This document shows, one piece after another, positions 293-9,233 of a stretch of DNA of 41,268 nucleotides. Position 1 is the first letter of the stretch, and the number at the start of each line of letters is the position of its first letter. Source of the DNA: Nostoc sp. T09 (GTDB lineage: Bacteria > Cyanobacteriota > Cyanobacteriia > Cyanobacteriales > Nostocaceae). A program made the translations under genes and the position numbers. The notes below the pieces were generated by a model, which saw nothing but the letters and a program-made list of their open reading frames with translations, was not told where the DNA came from and ran no database searches. The stretch is from assembly GCF_002154695.1 (NCBI RefSeq), contig NZ_MTAV01000041.1, positions 1 to 41,268 on the forward strand, given 5' to 3'.

Positions 293-1915
293 TTAGAAAT
301 CAAAGGTAGTACGCAGTACACCGACATACTGAGTATCGTTGTTGCTGTTGTTCTCTGGATTGAGAATTACCCAGAAACCAGGAGTCACCGAGATGTTATC
401 GTTGACTCGCAAGCGATAAAAAGCTTCGATGTGGTAAGCATTGTCATTCTCTTGACGGACATCACTGTTAGTAACATGAGGTGGAATACCAACGAGAATT
501 CCCGGAAGGTTGCCTCTACCCCCAAAATCTGGAAAGGAGAGACCAACTGCCCCAAACCAAGCATTAGCAGTGTTACCACTATTGACCAATAGAGAATCTG
601 TTCCACCCCTGCCATTAGAAACATCACTCAAACCAGAACTCTCGGCAGTTGCCCAAATATATCCACCCCAAGCATGGATTTGGAAGTTAGGGGAAAAGCG
701 ATAGTATCCCTGGACACCGACGATGTCGTTGGAAGTAGCAATGCGGTTACCAAAGGGAGCGATTGACAAGGCGCTGCCCCTGCCGCCTGTGATATCAACA
801 GTGCCAGCAGGGTTATATCCATGAGAGTAGGCGACACCAATTGCTGCTTGGTTGCCGTGATAGACTAGATGGGCCAGAGCGTTGTAACCACCATCAAATA
901 AGCCATTTTTCGGAGTTGGGTTATTGGGACTGTTTGCTAAATAGCCTAAGGTCAAAACCAAGTCTTTGCTGATATTCCAGTTAACCGCGCCACCGCCGCC
1001 ACCGCGCTCGAACAGAAGACTGTTTTTACCAAATAGTGAGGGAATCCCATTGCCATCATCGGCAATTGTGGCAGGAGTTACGTTCTCTGTGATGTCGTTG
1101 TAGCCAATACCCACCGGACCGACCACGAAGGAGAGGGAATCACTAACTGGAAAGTAGTAACGGATGTGGGGCACAATTAGTGTATTGTTGCTGTCGTTAT
1201 CGAAATTCAGGCGCGTCATTCCTGTGCCAGTGGCTGCGGCAATCCGGCTAGTGCCATCAGGATTGGTAAAGTTACCAAACTCCAGGCGGACTCGCAACAT
1301 GTCTTTGCCTGTAAAGCTGCTTTCTAACTGGAGACGACCGCGAGTTGCAAAGAAGACGTTGGATTCATCGCGATCGCCTCCAACTCTGTTACCAAAGGTA
1401 TCGCTAACAGCAGTAATAATTTGGGCATTTAATTTAGTGGTAGTAGAAAACTGTTGTTGCTCGAGTGTGGCTGTGCGTGCCTCTAACACATCCACCCGCC
1501 CACGTAGGGTTGTTAATTCGGCGGCAAATTCTTGCTGCAACTGTTGCAATGTTGCTAAGTCTTGCTTATTGACTAGCTCGCTAGTACTGGTAGTAATTAG
1601 CTCACCAATCCGATTCAAGCAGGCATTCAAACCTGCGGCAAATTCATAGCGAGTTAGGGCACGGTTGCCGCGGTAGGTGCCATTGGGATAACCTGCAATA
1701 CAGCCGTAGCGTTCTACCAGCGATTGCAGTGCTTGGAATGCCCAATCGTTTGGTTGTACATCTGATAGCTGAGATACAGAATTTACCTGTTCCTGAATGC
1801 TGCCATTATTATCTGCTGCATCAGCAATTTTCAAATTATTGTTTGAGGGTATTGCCCAGGCTGCTGGGCATAACAAAAATAAGAGTGGAAAACTGTACAA
1901 AAAATTTTTTAGCAT
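293..1915 (-). CDS. Carbohydrate-selective porin, OprB family, with SLH domain
   Basis: Outer-membrane beta-barrel porin for sugar or solute entry. I place the start at ATG 1915 because it opens directly into a signal peptide (MLKNFLYSFPLLFLLCPAAWA); an upstream ATG at 1984 would add 23 residues before it. In order: signal peptide; an SLH domain at about residues 50-110 (DVQPNDWAFQALQSL, then YPNGTYRGNRALTRYEFAAG), which binds peptidoglycan-linked polymer in cyanobacterial porins; a coiled coil (LRGRVDVLEARTATLEQQQ); then a Gly/Asn-rich barrel ending in Phe (TTFDF), the usual outer-membrane C-terminal signal. The 540-residue length fits the family. It lies between the MFS and ABC sugar transporter genes on the same strand, which supports a role in sugar permeation. 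Confidence 0.93.
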   Translation of the reverse strand: MLKNFLYSFPLLFLLCPAAWAIPSNNNLKIADAADNNGSIQEQVNSVSQLSDVQPNDWAFQALQSLVERYGCIAGYPNGTYRGNRALTRYEFAAGLNACLNRIGELITTSTSELVNKQDLATLQQLQQEFAAELTTLRGRVDVLEARTATLEQQQFSTTTKLNAQIITAVSDTFGNRVGGDRDESNVFFATRGRLQLESSFTGKDMLRVRLEFGNFTNPDGTSRIAAATGTGMTRLNFDNDSNNTLIVPHIRYYFPVSDSLSFVVGPVGIGYNDITENVTPATIADDGNGIPSLFGKNSLLFERGGGGGAVNWNISKDLVLTLGYLANSPNNPTPKNGLFDGGYNALAHLVYHGNQAAIGVAYSHGYNPAGTVDITGGRGSALSIAPFGNRIATSNDIVGVQGYYRFSPNFQIHAWGGYIWATAESSGLSDVSNGRGGTDSLLVNSGNTANAWFGAVGLSFPDFGGRGNLPGILVGIPPHVTNSDVRQENDNAYHIEAFYRLRVNDNISVTPGFWVILNPENNSNNDTQYVGVLRTTFDF

Positions 1916-2013
1916 GATATTAAACGAGATACTTGTAAAAACCTGTATCGTTGGTCTAAACTTCACCCGTTCGCTGTTCGGCATCCGCCCTTAACGTTGC
2001 GCAAGGCTAGCCG

Positions 2014-2369: not shown

Positions 2370-3365
2370 TCATCTGGTACGTCTGCGGAGGCGATCGATC
2401 ATTACCGCCAAGATAATTACTAGTCCCTTGACGACTAGTTGCCAGAAGAAAGATAGGTTTAACAGGGTTAAACCATTGTTGAGAATAGCAATAATCAATG
2501 CGCCTAGTAGGGTACCACCAATAGTACCAATACCACCTGTAAAGCTGGTGCCACCAAGAATTACAGCAGCGATCGCATCCAACTCGTAACCTTGACCCAA
2601 TAAGCCACTAGCACTATATAAACGGCTAGCACTCATGATTCCTGCCAAACCTGCCAGTAATCCACTGACGCCATAGACAAAAAGCAAGACGCGATTGACT
2701 TTGATACCAGTTAAGCGTGCTGCCCGTTCGTTACCTCCAACTGCATATATCTGCACTCCTAAAACAGTTTGTCGCAGGATGAACCAACTAACTGCGACAG
2801 CAAGTAGGGCAATGACTACTAACCAGGGAATGGGTCCCAAATAACTATTACCTACCCAAGCAAAATTGATATCACGGTTAATAACTGTTGTCCCCTTGGC
2901 GATCAAATAGGCAACACCCCGCAAGGCGGTAAGTGAACCGAGGGTAACAATAAAGGGTGGCACATCCAAAAAGGTGATTAAAGCGCCGTTCACTAAGCCC
3001 AAAACCAATCCTGTCAGCAGCCCAGCCAGCACAGCCGCCCAGCCCAAACCTGGAACCAAGGATACTATCAGTGTAGCTACGGCAGAAACAGCCAATATTG
3101 ACCCAACTGAAAGGTCAATACCACCGGTGAGGATGACAAACGTCATTCCTGTCGCTAGCACAATATTGATTGATGCCTGCCGTAATATATTGACGGCGTT
3201 ACCAGCTGAGAGAAAGCTGGGGGACAAAAACGAAAACAAGATGCAGATCAGTACCAGAATCGGCAGAATACCTGCAACCTGGATAAGATTGTTGATTGAT
3301 TGACGCTGGCGCGACACGGGTTGCGTGCCTGGTCTATTTTTGGCAGGTCTTACAGTTTGACTCAT
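2370..3365 (-). CDS. CUT2-family sugar ABC transporter permease (RbsC/FrtC-like)
   Basis: Inner-membrane permease of a ribose/fructose/inositol-type ABC importer. The 331 residues hold a basic N-terminus, then about 8-10 hydrophobic helices with the family signatures [18 protein letters not shown], the [16 protein letters not shown] segment, and the C-terminal [24 protein letters not shown]. Length and motifs match RbsC. Its ATG overlaps the stop of the ATPase gene by 4 nt (ATGA), so the two are translationally coupled. In Anabaena variabilis a transporter of this family (FrtABC) imports fructose, and in other bacteria relatives import ribose, galactose or myo-inositol. The sequence alone does not settle the substrate. 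Confidence 0.93.
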
Positions 3366-4915
3366 GATCTTACTACCTCCCCTGCTCCTGTGGCATAGTG
3401 CATAATATTTTCTTGGGTAATTTCTTTGCCAAGGCTGCCGTCTAGTTCGCCTACCAGCTGCCCTTCTCGCATCACTAAGACGCGATCGCTCATGCCGACA
3501 ATCTCCGGTAGTTCGCTGGAAACCATCAAAATCGCAATCCCATGTGCTGCCAGTTCGCTCATAATCCGGTAAATTTCGCTTTTGGCACCAATATCTACAC
3601 CGCGTGTCGGCTCATCGAGCATCAATACTTTCGGTTTAATGGCTAGCCAGCGCGCCAGCAGCAGCTTTTGCTGATTACCACCGGAAAGATCCACGGCTCT
3701 AATTTCCAGGTTGGCAAGCCGGATATGAAAGTTTTCTACCGCTTCCGTGGCAATCTGATTGACTGAACCCCAGTTAACAACACCAGCCTTTGCATCCTGC
3801 TTGAGCCTGTTGAGAGCAATATTCTTCCGGGAACTCATCTCCAGAAACAAACCTTGGTCTTTGCGGTCTTCTGGGACATAGCCTATGCCGGCAGCAATGG
3901 CATCACTAGGACTATTAATATTTAGTCTTTTGCCATCTAGAAATACTTCACCACTTACCTTGCGGTCAGCACCAAAAATTAGCCGGGATAGTTCAGTGCG
4001 TCCTGCACCAACCAGCCCGGATAGACCGAGAATCTCGCCAGCATGAATTACAAAACTAGCCGGCTCAATCTTGCGGCCGTCACTCATATTTCTAACTTCC
4101 AGCACCACTGGCCCAAAATTTGTTCGCCGCTGATGTTCGTAAAAATCCTGCATAGGACGACCGACCATCATTTGTACCAATCGCTGGGCAGAAATTTCCT
4201 CTCGTGTCAGACTGCCAACGTATTGACCATCACGCAGCACGCTAATGCGGTTCGCCAAGGCATAAACTTCTTCCATGCGGTGGCTGATATAGATAATGGC
4301 AATGCCGTCATTTCGCAGTTTGCGAATTACCTCAAACAAACGCTCAGTCTCGCGGTCAGATAGTGCAGCTGTTGGCTCATCCATCACCAAGATGCGTCTT
4401 TTATCTTTCAGGGCCCTGGCAATTTCTACCTGCTGCTGTTCGGCAATTGAGAGAGTACCGACTATATCAGTGATCGCAAAACTAGCACCGAGGCTTTGCA
4501 GCACTTGCCGTGCTTCTTCTTCCATGCCTTGGCGATCTAAAAACTGACCTCTGCGTAACTCGCTACCCATAAACATATTTTCGGTAACGGTTAAATTGGG
4601 TGCAACATTCAGTTCTTGATAGATGAGATTAATACCCGCCTGTCGCGCTGTCGCTGGATCGGTAATTTTCACGGGGTTACCATTGATGCGAATCTCGCCT
4701 TCATCAGCGATGTAAGCCCCAGCCAGGATTTTCATCAATGTGCTTTTGCCTGCTCCGTTCTCGCCCATAAGAGCGTGAACTTCTCCCGGATAAATCGTGA
4801 GATTGACATTTTGCAGAGCAGGTACACCATGAAATCGTTTTGTAATCCCTTGCATTTCTAATACAGGGGTGACAGTTGGCGCATCAGGAAAAGAAGTTTC
4901 AGTACTTATTGTCAT
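3362..4915 (-). CDS. CUT2-family sugar ABC transporter ATPase, two nucleotide-binding domains (RbsA/FrtB-like)
   Basis: Tandem ATPase that drives the permease. I chose ATG 4915 because AGGA lies 8 nt upstream and the protein then opens with MTISTETS; an in-frame ATG at 4975 would add a low-complexity Met/Pro-rich leader encoded by an intergenic repeat. First domain: Walker [10 protein letters not shown], signature [12 protein letters not shown], Walker [12 protein letters not shown]. Second domain: degenerate Walker [10 protein letters not shown] (no lysine), complete signature [15 protein letters not shown], Walker [13 protein letters not shown]. The asymmetric second site is normal for RbsA proteins. 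Length (517 aa) is typical. It is followed by the permease gene with a 4-nt overlap and preceded by two substrate-binding protein genes. Confidence 0.94.
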
Positions 4916-4942
4916 GAACACATCCTGTAAAAACAATATTGG

Positions 4943-4970
4943 GGCATAGGGCATTGGGCATGGGGCATAG
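4943..4970. repeat. Heptameric tandem repeat (GGCATNG)4
   Basis: Four head-to-tail 7-bp units: GGCATAG, GGCATTG, GGCATGG, GGCATAG, between the ATPase gene and the first binding-protein gene. Such short tandemly repeated heptamers are common between genes in heterocystous cyanobacteria. A related set lies just after glyA (36344). Confidence 0.8.
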
Positions 4971-5019
4971 TTCACAATTCTCCTTGTTCCCTCTCATCTC
5001 CCTTCCAATGCCCAATTCC

Positions 5020-6054
5020 TTACCAGCCTTTTTCTGTAGCAACGTTATCTTTTGTGATCAACTTGACTGGAATCAGAATGGTAGGACTACTTGGCTTTTT
5101 CCCATGCAAGATGTCGTTACCAACCTCAACTGCTTTTGCTGCCATCCCACGGGGATTTTGCGTAGCAGTTGCCGCATATATACCATCTTTGTTGGCGATC
5201 GCTTTGATTGCTTCAGGCGCACCATCGACCCCAACAATAAAGAACTCTTTACGTTGTGCTTGGTTAGCTGCTAGTTCTGCTCCTACCCCACTCGGATCGT
5301 TGATGGCAAAAACAGCATCTATTTTCGGAAAGGTTGTTAGCAAGTCAGTCATAACTCTGAGTCCGCCATCCCGACTGCCTTCTGCATTCTGGTTTTGAGA
5401 AAGTATTTTTATCCCAGGATATTTCGCCAATACATTCTGGCAGCCATTAACTCGCTGAATTACTGATTCCACCTGAGGTCCATTGACGATTACTACATTT
5501 CCTTGGCCTTTGAGTCGGTCAGCAATATATTTACAAGCAACCTCTCCAGCTTGCGCATTATTAGTAGTAACGGTGGCGTCTACTCCTTCTGCACCTGTAT
5601 CTACTGCAACTATGATTCTACCGGCTTGCTTGGCTTTATCTACTGCTGGCTTAATACCAGTTTTATCAGCAGCATTCAGGATAATTACGTCGGTGTTGGA
5701 AGCAGTAAAGTTTTCAATTTGGTTGGCTTGTTGGTTGAGGTCATAGGCACTGGAAACCACACTAACTTTCACATTATTACCGCCAATTCTCTTGGCTTCT
5801 GCCTTAATTTCGTCCCCCATCAGGACGAAAAAGGGGTTACTGAGATCGCCAGCCGTGAAGGCTACCGAACGTAATTTTTTATCACCAGTGGCAGTATTAG
5901 TCTGGGCGCTAGTATTGCTTGCAGTGTTAGTGGCGGTGTTGGTATCAGTGTTACTAGCACTGTTGCCATTCTGAGCGCCATTTGAGCAACCAATAACAGT
6001 ACCGCTGAGAATGCCTAATATGCTAGCTGCGATCGCAATCTTTTTCACTTTCAT
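5020..6054 (-). CDS. Sugar-binding lipoprotein of CUT2 ABC transporter, copy 1 (RbsB/FrtA-like)
   Basis: Periplasmic substrate-binding protein (Peripla_BP_4 family), 344 residues. It begins with a lipoprotein signal peptide whose lipobox LSGTVIGC puts the lipid-bearing Cys near residue 23, followed by an Asn/Thr/Ser linker. The mature part has the family landmarks GDLSNPFFVLMGDEIKAEAK, DVIILNAADKTGIKPAVDKA, the hinge AVDTGAEG, the INDPSGVGAELAA stretch and VGVDGAPEAIKAI. AGGA precedes the ATG by about 7 nt. It is a close paralogue of the gene just upstream (6150-7169), with long identical blocks such as GGLRVMTDLLTTFPKIDAVF. It is transcribed towards the ATPase and permease genes. Family is certain; ligand is not. 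Confidence 0.92.
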   Translation of the reverse strand: MKVKKIAIAASILGILSGTVIGCSNGAQNGNSASNTDTNTATNTASNTSAQTNTATGDKKLRSVAFTAGDLSNPFFVLMGDEIKAEAKRIGGNNVKVSVVSSAYDLNQQANQIENFTASNTDVIILNAADKTGIKPAVDKAKQAGRIIVAVDTGAEGVDATVTTNNAQAGEVACKYIADRLKGQGNVVIVNGPQVESVIQRVNGCQNVLAKYPGIKILSQNQNAEGSRDGGLRVMTDLLTTFPKIDAVFAINDPSGVGAELAANQAQRKEFFIVGVDGAPEAIKAIANKDGIYAATATQNPRGMAAKAVEVGNDILHGKKPSSPTILIPVKLITKDNVATEKGW

Positions 6055-6149: not shown

Positions 6150-7169
6150 CTACCAGCCTTTGTAACTGCTGAGGTTCTCTCGGGTAACTAACTTGACTGG
6201 AACCAAAATGTTGGAATTACTAAGTTTTTTGCCTTGGATGACATCGTTACCAACCTGAACCGCTTGTTCAGCCATCCCTGCTGGATTTTGAGCAGCAGTT
6301 GCAGCAAACAGACCATCTTTGTCTTCCATTGCTTTGGTTGCATCTGGCGAACCGTCAACCCCAACAATAAAAAATTCTTTGCGTCTTGCTTGCTTGGCTG
6401 CTAAATCTGCTCCTACCCCACTTTGATCGTTAGTGGCAAAAACAGCATCAATCTTAGGAAAGGTTGTGAGCAAGTCTGTCATGACTCGGAGTCCGCCATC
6501 TCTTGTTCCTTCTGCATTCTGGTCTTTAGAGAGGATTTTTATCCCAGGATATTTAGACAATGAAGTCATACAGCCTTCAACTCGCTGGACGATGGAATCC
6601 ATCTGCGTACCGTTGAGGATGACTACGTTACCTTGTCCTTTGAGGCGATCGCCTATATATTTGCAAGCAATCTCTCCAGCTTGGGTATTGTTAGAGCTAA
6701 TCATCGCATCGACATCTGCATCAACGGCTGAATCTACCGCAATCACAACCCTACCTGCTTGTCTGGCATTGTCAATTGCCGGTTTGACTCCTTTTTTGTC
6801 AACAGCGCTGAGGATAATTAGGTCAGTATTCGCAGCGGTGAAATTTTCGATTTGGTTAGTTTGTTGATTGAGGTCAAAGCCACTGGAAACCGCATTAACT
6901 CTGACATTGCCGATTTTCTTGGCTTGTCTCTCAGCGCCTTTCTGCACTGCTACATAGAAGGGATTACCTAAGTCGCCAAGGCTAACACCTACTGTTCGCA
7001 ATTTGCCATTCTGATTACTAGCTTTAGTCTGGGCACTAGTGTTGATAGCAGTATTGTTATCAGTGTTAGCAGCACTGTTGTCATTGGGAGAGCTATTTGT
7101 GCAACCAACAACAGTACCACTGAGTAAACCTAAGATGCTAACTGCGATTGCAATTCTCTTCATATTCAT
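6150..7169 (-). CDS. Sugar-binding lipoprotein of CUT2 ABC transporter, copy 2 (RbsB/FrtA-like)
   Basis: Second periplasmic binding protein, 339 residues, first gene of the transporter set. Lipobox LSGTVVGC, short Asn/Thr/Ser linker, then the same fold landmarks as its neighbour: GDLGNPFYVAVQKGAERQAK, DLIILSAVDKKGVKPAIDNA, AVDSAVDADVDA, TNDQSGVGADLAA, VGVDGSPDATKAM. Differences fall in expected pocket or hinge positions: NPFY versus NPFF, the AVD hinge, and TNDQSG versus INDPSG. The two copies may therefore differ in ligand or affinity. A second ATG two codons in (7163) is an alternative start; neither has a clear Shine-Dalgarno. The 95-bp gap to copy 1 has no obvious terminator, so co-transcription is likely. 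Confidence 0.92.
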   Translation of the reverse strand: MNMKRIAIAVSILGLLSGTVVGCTNSSPNDNSAANTDNNTAINTSAQTKASNQNGKLRTVGVSLGDLGNPFYVAVQKGAERQAKKIGNVRVNAVSSGFDLNQQTNQIENFTAANTDLIILSAVDKKGVKPAIDNARQAGRVVIAVDSAVDADVDAMISSNNTQAGEIACKYIGDRLKGQGNVVILNGTQMDSIVQRVEGCMTSLSKYPGIKILSKDQNAEGTRDGGLRVMTDLLTTFPKIDAVFATNDQSGVGADLAAKQARRKEFFIVGVDGSPDATKAMEDKDGLFAATAAQNPAGMAEQAVQVGNDVIQGKKLSNSNILVPVKLVTRENLSSYKGW

Positions 7170-9075: not shown

Positions 9076-9091
9076 ATGCACACGTGTGCAT
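9076..9091. promoter_or_regulatory. Palindromic operator 1 upstream of MIOX (ATGCACAC|GTGTGCAT)
   Basis: A perfect 16-bp palindrome, 49 bp upstream of the oxygenase start codon. Central CG and outer TGC...GCA arms fit the general form of LacI/GalR-family operators. A second copy of its inner 14 bp lies at 9111-9124, centre to centre 34 bp. The binding protein is not in this window. Confidence 0.75.
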
Positions 9092-9110
9092 TTGTTCATG
9101 TTTTTATTTT

Positions 9111-9124
9111 TGCACACGTGTGCA
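9111..9124. promoter_or_regulatory. Palindromic operator 2 upstream of MIOX (TGCACAC|GTGTGCA)
   Basis: A perfect 14-bp palindrome identical to the core of the site at 9076-9091. Two equal sites about three helical turns apart suggest cooperative binding of a dimeric or tetrameric repressor over the promoter. Divergent control of the gene starting at 9523 is less likely, because about 400 bp and a large palindrome lie between. Confidence 0.75.
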
Positions 9125-9203: not shown

Positions 9204-9233
9204 CCTAGACCAGAGCGATCGCTCTGGTCTAGG
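9204..9233. repeat. 30-bp perfect palindrome centred on HIP1
   Basis: Left arm CCTAGACCAGAGCGA and right arm TCGCTCTGGTCTAGG are exact reverse complements with no spacer, so the strand could form a 15-bp hairpin or a cruciform. The centre is the cyanobacterial octamer GCGATCGC. No T-run follows on either side. It lies between the MIOX operators and the NagX-like gene. Confidence 0.8.

Follow-up and report, generated by a model that had tools for sequence, protein, structure and literature searches.

Which regulator acts at the two palindromes lying just upstream of the myo-inositol oxygenase (MIOX) gene of Nostoc sp. T09, and which metabolic route would it switch? The window analysed here is a 41,268-nucleotide stretch of this genome, and a sequence-only reading of it had described twin palindromes with a common 14-bp core, 34 bp apart and 5' of MIOX, with no other copy in the window. 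Both exact copies of the core, TGCACACGTGTGCA, were located (Table 1), 34 bp apart from centre to centre (and from start to start) and separated by a 20-bp spacer; a scan allowing up to three mismatches gave no further match in the window. Such a loose scan is expected to give 1.6 matches by chance, so the window count alone is no proof. The operator centres lie 56 and 90 bp 5' of the MIOX start (9027), and the copy nearer to the gene extends to a perfect 16-bp palindrome (9076-9091). TGCACACGTGTGCA is itself palindromic with a central CpG, as is typical of LacI/GalR-family operators; CC or GG centres also occur in relatives. A perfect 30-bp palindrome (9204-9233), the centre of which is GCGATCGC, which we take to be HIP1, lies between the operators and a divergent NagX-like gene.

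Table 1. Coordinates of the features discussed (window positions, except for hrmA, which lies in locus L007).
Feature	Position	Strand	Remarks
OprB-type porin adjoining transporter	293..1984	-	PF04966
Sugar ABC transporter permease	2370..3365	-	PF02653
Sugar ABC transporter ATPase	3362..4975	-	PF00005, two stretches; under equivalog cut-offs
Periplasmic sugar-binding protein 2	5020..6054	-	PF13407
Periplasmic sugar-binding protein 1, frtA-like by position	6150..7169	-	PF13407
hrmE (as read here), myo-inositol oxygenase (MIOX), 297 aa	8134..9027	-	PF05153, E 2.6e-113; PDB 2huo, E 2.3e-80
Putative operator proximal to hrmE	9077..9090	.	TGCACACGTGTGCA; kept before hrmE in relatives
A+T-rich 20-bp inter-operator stretch	9091..9110	-	TATAAA in some relatives
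Putative operator distal to hrmE	9111..9124	.	TGCACACGTGTGCA
hrmA	L007:15983-17239	+	LarA superfamily, close to GntE2 epimerase

The genes for both binding proteins, the ATPase, the permease and the porin all follow MIOX downstream on the same strand. The closest solved relatives of binding protein 1 are ribose-type or unnamed sugar-binding proteins, and the porin scores over the cut-off of the NCBIfam "iron uptake porin" subfamily (NF033921). The closest named MIOX among the best 80 of 201 relatives is that of Nostoc sp. 106C (95% identical). The idea that the palindromes control the NagX-like gene (divergent, from 9466) was considered and rejected, since, apart from the window, only L085/L192, apparently a single genome, have this gene close to hrmE.

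A MIOX gene belongs to the hrm locus of N. punctiforme, where it is named hrmE (Fig. 6 legend of PMC5987646), so the shared regulator would be HrmR; on our reading, hrmE is also the MIOX gene of the window, and the palindromes form the putative HrmR operator. The model presented there draws on Cohen and Meeks 1997 and Campbell et al.: HrmR acts as a repressor of both hrmR and hrmE, at their promoters, and its affinity is reduced by a galacturonate-like compound; HrmR action at the hrmE promoter is thus already described, while the operator letters given here are our proposal. The 14-letter operator was not found in the searchable literature, and its inner 12 letters occur there only in two works, unrelated by title.

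In the draft genome of the strain itself (8.25 Mb, 270 contigs), TGCACACGTGTGCA has four exact copies and six places with up to two mismatches; the reversed-pattern control gave 0. The two inexact sites (C126:39781 and C256:108999) both fall inside long open frames and were discarded as chance matches. The two exact copies outside the window are both located in the hrm cluster of contig C264 (locus L007), 1.9 kb apart. The first (L007:10944-10957) stands between the divergent genes hrmK (gluconokinase) and hrmR of the LacI family; its centre precedes the hrmR start by 27 bp and follows a promoter-like TTGACA-17-AATAAT site by 11 bp. The scan concerned gave three such sites against 1.1 in shuffles, which makes this hrmR promoter call weak on its own. 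The second (L007:9047-9060) has its centre some 350 bp before a gene of the fatty-acid-desaturase type. Genes for an NADH dehydrogenase-like protein, hrmI (glucuronate isomerase), hrmU (D-mannonate oxidoreductase) and hrmA follow 3' of hrmR, hrmI and hrmU both scoring over their NCBIfam cut-offs. The sequence-only reading had envisaged a LacI-family operator common to MIOX, the hrm genes and a LacI-family gene; since the only two further copies in the genome belong to the hrm cluster, one of them directly before hrmR, its own test is positive, all three partners are present in this genome, and the sharing of the site supports the proposed common control.

The arrangement resembles the N. punctiforme hrm locus (PMC5987646, as far as its account of the locus extends) in its genes hrmE, K, R, I, U and A, its LacI-family repressor and the proposed action at the hrmR and hrmE promoters; it differs in that hrmE is on a separate contig and has a double operator, and in a third operator copy before the desaturase-type gene. 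The latter gene is also preceded by an exact operator in genome G141 (L191:8188-8201), and in L203 and L099 it is present as pieces only. The gene between hrmR and hrmI, which resembles type II NADH dehydrogenases, was seen in L007 (12263-13564) and L191 (4588-5886); the other mapped hrm loci have no such gene at this place.

HrmR (341 aa) matches the LacI helix-turn-helix (HTH) domain (PF00356) and the sugar-binding domain PF13377, both over the cut-off. The 56 full-length rows all have one HTH stretch in common, AGVSH(S/T)TVSRALRD, as would fit a common operator. The palindrome pair very probably represents the docking sites predicted for the HrmR repressor. We consider it highly probable, as a whole, that the palindromes are operators at which HrmR would jointly repress hrmE and the hrm operon until a sugar acid releases it, and that the products of these genes would lead from inositol to 6-phosphogluconate. 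The exact bases contacted by HrmR, the position of the hrmE promoter, the nature of the inducer and the pathway as a whole are presumed here.

Conservation of the site was followed in 145 genomes of the family, which are related to each other, so that the counts are not independent. Exact TGCACACGTGTGCA occurs in 64 copies in 28 of them (reversed control: 0 in all 145), and for 55 of the 64 an hrmE or hrmR start follows within 300 bp. Nine copies remain, all in these neighbourhoods. The desaturase-type gene is preceded by one in the strain itself and by one in G141; in G084 and G131 a MIOX remnant follows the copy at about 80 bp; in G093, G105 and G119 the transporter lies about 0.3, 1.0 and 1.3 kb downstream of it; G015 has its copy between a DUF1815 gene and the remnants of a transporter, and G142 has one 435 bp before hrmE. 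The MIOX remnants of G084 and G131 (L196:8203-8863 and L197:8235-8895) are still preceded by one exact and one one-mismatch operator.

Since hrmE and the remaining hrm genes are on different contigs of the draft genome, one can suggest that the palindromes serve another regulator of inositol use and not HrmR. The family data make this improbable. TGCACASSTGTGCA, in which the two centre bases are relaxed to S, is present in 42 of the 145 genomes, namely in 41 of the 46 having an hrmR homologue (one per genome, E 1e-40 or better) and in only one of the 99 without it (Fisher p 2e-29, kinship ignored). In addition, genomes devoid of MIOX retain the site before hrmR, and in four of the five site-less hrmR genomes (G065, G091, G115, G120) the hrmR match is devoid of its N-terminal part; in G091 and G120 the rest of hrmR abuts transporter genes, as if one deletion had taken both this part and the intergenic DNA. 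The fifth, G110, has a two-mismatch form of the site at the usual place. The site in G078, the sole genome with a site and without hrmR, is considered a chance match, as none of the 15 query genes occurs in the fetched 10 kb around it. When up to two mismatches are allowed, the site is found within 320 bp of all 56 full-length hrmR rows (some genomes appear twice), and HrmR remains the regulator that we favour.

Recurrence upstream of MIOX itself was assessed on genome contigs carrying the best 80 of 201 MIOX relatives, 30 of which are cyanobacterial by title. In each of these 30 named cyanobacterial loci among the best 80, the 300 bp before hrmE contain a site with no more than one mismatch, and 28 of the loci show a second site (up to two mismatches), the other two being single. 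The 50 other loci of this set, apparently Bacteroidota by title, yielded no site in 972,726 bases at the limit of one mismatch. The expectation that the palindromes would recur in relatives upstream of MIOX, of the hrm genes and of a LacI-family gene is thus borne out. MIOX proteins outside the cyanobacteria (L113-L164 except L125 and L155, among the same best 80) are 68-78% identical to the query, which suggests a transfer of the gene between cyanobacteria and Bacteroidota.

A role at the RNA level is conceivable too, with the palindromes forming hairpins or a weak terminator close to the transcript start: 9076-9091 with its tail is terminator-like on the + strand (one such element found, 0.7 expected in shuffles). 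We regard this as extremely improbable, since the stem would consist of six pairs, three of them G-C, since the letters themselves are conserved beyond mere pairing, and since these letters recur in both orientations relative to genes, and also on the distal side of promoters. The stretch between the twin sites is a possible -10 region of hrmE; the window scan gave 0 promoter-like matches at hrmE.

The spacing of the twin sites is variable. A site pair is present in 34 of 37 hrmE upstream rows (some genomes appear twice), and for the sites nearest to the hrmE start the distance is 34 bp in eight, 33 or 35-36 bp in six, 42-44 bp in 18, 28 bp in one and 79 bp in one; a fixed helical phasing of the two operators is made unlikely by this range. 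LacI carries a tetramer-forming tail. The 341-aa HrmR seems to lack it, which makes two adjacent HrmR dimers a likelier arrangement than a looping tetramer.

Twin sites are also found where MIOX is absent. In 11 MIOX-less genomes they are exactly 34 bp apart, have CC or GG centres and lie between an hrmR-type gene and a divergent sugar ABC transporter. These 11 form one side of a branch of the HrmR tree (support 100/100), which makes them a clade only under a root placed outside; G057, likewise without MIOX, is a twelfth genome with a 34-bp pair, but groups with the other HrmR rows. A repressor gene adjoining such a transporter is called frtR in PMC10515406, and from its position we read the hrmR-type gene of the 11 genomes as frtR. 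As in the FrtR/frtABC system of Anabaena variabilis, so far as described in PMC8261047 and PMC10515406, the hrmR-type gene of the 11 genomes is divergent from the transporter, and the HTH stretch in the 11 is the same as in the hrmR rows; these FrtR-type loci differ by the CC/GG centres in place of CG and by the presumed target, which would be the transporter and not hrmE. Among 15 MIOX-less loci chosen for hrmR near a transporter, all 15 have the site (up to two mismatches) upstream of the transporter, a choice that left out five other loci without MIOX that contain parts of a transporter: in L180 and L186 the site lies about 1.0-1.3 kb upstream of the transporter, and L176, L181 and L187 show no site with at most one mismatch.

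The 20-bp inter-operator stretches at hrmE and in the 11 genomes resemble each other. Gapped comparison in the same orientation gave a mean score of 13.3 (shuffles 9.9, sd 0.33, the highest of 500 being 11.0; opposite strand 6.3), for six different hrmE stretches, all from the 33-34-bp class, against ten, with shuffles that ignore kinship. The signal of the ungapped comparison is weak (11.0 of 20; shuffled 8.4, sd 2.0).

It might be argued from this similarity, and from the 34-bp twin sites of the 11 genomes, that the pair before hrmE is a relic of an older FrtR-type transporter promoter which now controls nothing. This seems very improbable: exact copies are kept before hrmE in many species, none of the 36 gaps between hrmE and the transporter contains a site with up to two mismatches, and HrmR is described at the hrmE promoter in the model of PMC5987646. 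In our reading, hrmE may have come behind the old transporter promoter and taken over its switch. In N. punctiforme, HrmR is a homologue of FrtR that appears not to regulate the fructose transporter (PMC8261047, in its statement citing Ekman 2013); capture of the promoter by hrmE would explain this reported lack of control.

The remaining question concerns the route served by the hrm genes, since hrmA is listed as unknown in the 2018 legend (PMC5987646). HrmA residues 11-418 match GntE2 of Thermotoga maritima (PDB 4NAR, E 2.8e-64), a nickel-dependent D-gluconate 2-epimerase which converts D-mannonate to D-gluconate (PMC7583248). By the residue list of that paper, HrmA shares with GntE2 the seven catalytic/cofactor positions (D40, R43, H74, H159, K169, H185, K284), and E160, V161 and W280 correspond to the E-V loop and W of its hexonate groups, the W having been placed by us; all of these residues are identical in 25 of 25 full-length rows. 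With the NCBIfam hexonate model (NF052594), HrmA scores 192.6 bits against a cut-off of 500 and so is not filed as an equivalog of that family. The cofactor genes larB, larC and larE are all over the cut-off in this genome; larC was tried as an HrmA marker and rejected, since it is present in 142 of 145 genomes and the cofactor genes therefore do not single out HrmA. Mannonate dehydratase (PF03786) was not found in the genome by a search that was positive in E. coli and four other controls.

Of the 145 genomes, 13 have hrmA (nearly complete in 12, a fragment in one); all 13 are among the 18 with full-length MIOX, the other five of which show no hrmA. As a D-mannonate/D-gluconate epimerase, HrmA would close a route from inositol to 6-phosphogluconate. 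In such a route, composed here from protein similarities, HrmE would convert myo-inositol to glucuronate, HrmI would form fructuronate, HrmU mannonate, HrmA gluconate and HrmK 6-phosphogluconate. No statement linking hrmA with an epimerase, or hormogonia with mannonate or lactate racemase, was found in the literature searched, most subscription papers lying outside it; a paper on a sponge symbiont, by its abstract, contains "hrmA" and "epimerase" once each (PMC6506613). A rival hypothesis, related in PMC5987646, is that the hrm genes produce an inhibitor and do not serve carbon catabolism, and a 2021 review (PMC8074062, in its lines on these genes) gives the function of hrmE as unknown, and hrmR and hrmE as negatively regulated by fructose.

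Taken together, the proposal that hrm is an inositol-to-6-phosphogluconate shunt, in which the nickel-pincer enzyme HrmA replaces mannonate dehydratase and hrmE has captured an FrtR-type twin-operator promoter, is put forward tentatively, with a chance slightly short of even. In the switch that we envisage, an HrmR dimer on each palindrome would block hrmE transcription, while at the single operator before hrmR, which also stands before the divergent hrmK, HrmR would repress its own operon; a sugar-acid inducer would release HrmR, and hrmE and the hrm operon would be made together.

The restraint of hormogonia by the hrm genes is a step in the settling of Nostoc in plants, and the proposed operators would link inositol breakdown to the genes that restrain motile filaments in plant-associated cyanobacteria. 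With the precise operator, HrmR targets could be listed easily in any genome, and the closed pathway derived from the regulon predicts the HrmA reaction, the substrate (inositol) and candidate inducers. If the shunt proposal is true, a sugar-uptake switch became the switch of an inositol shunt, and plant inositol or its uronates would be the hormogonium-repressing signals.
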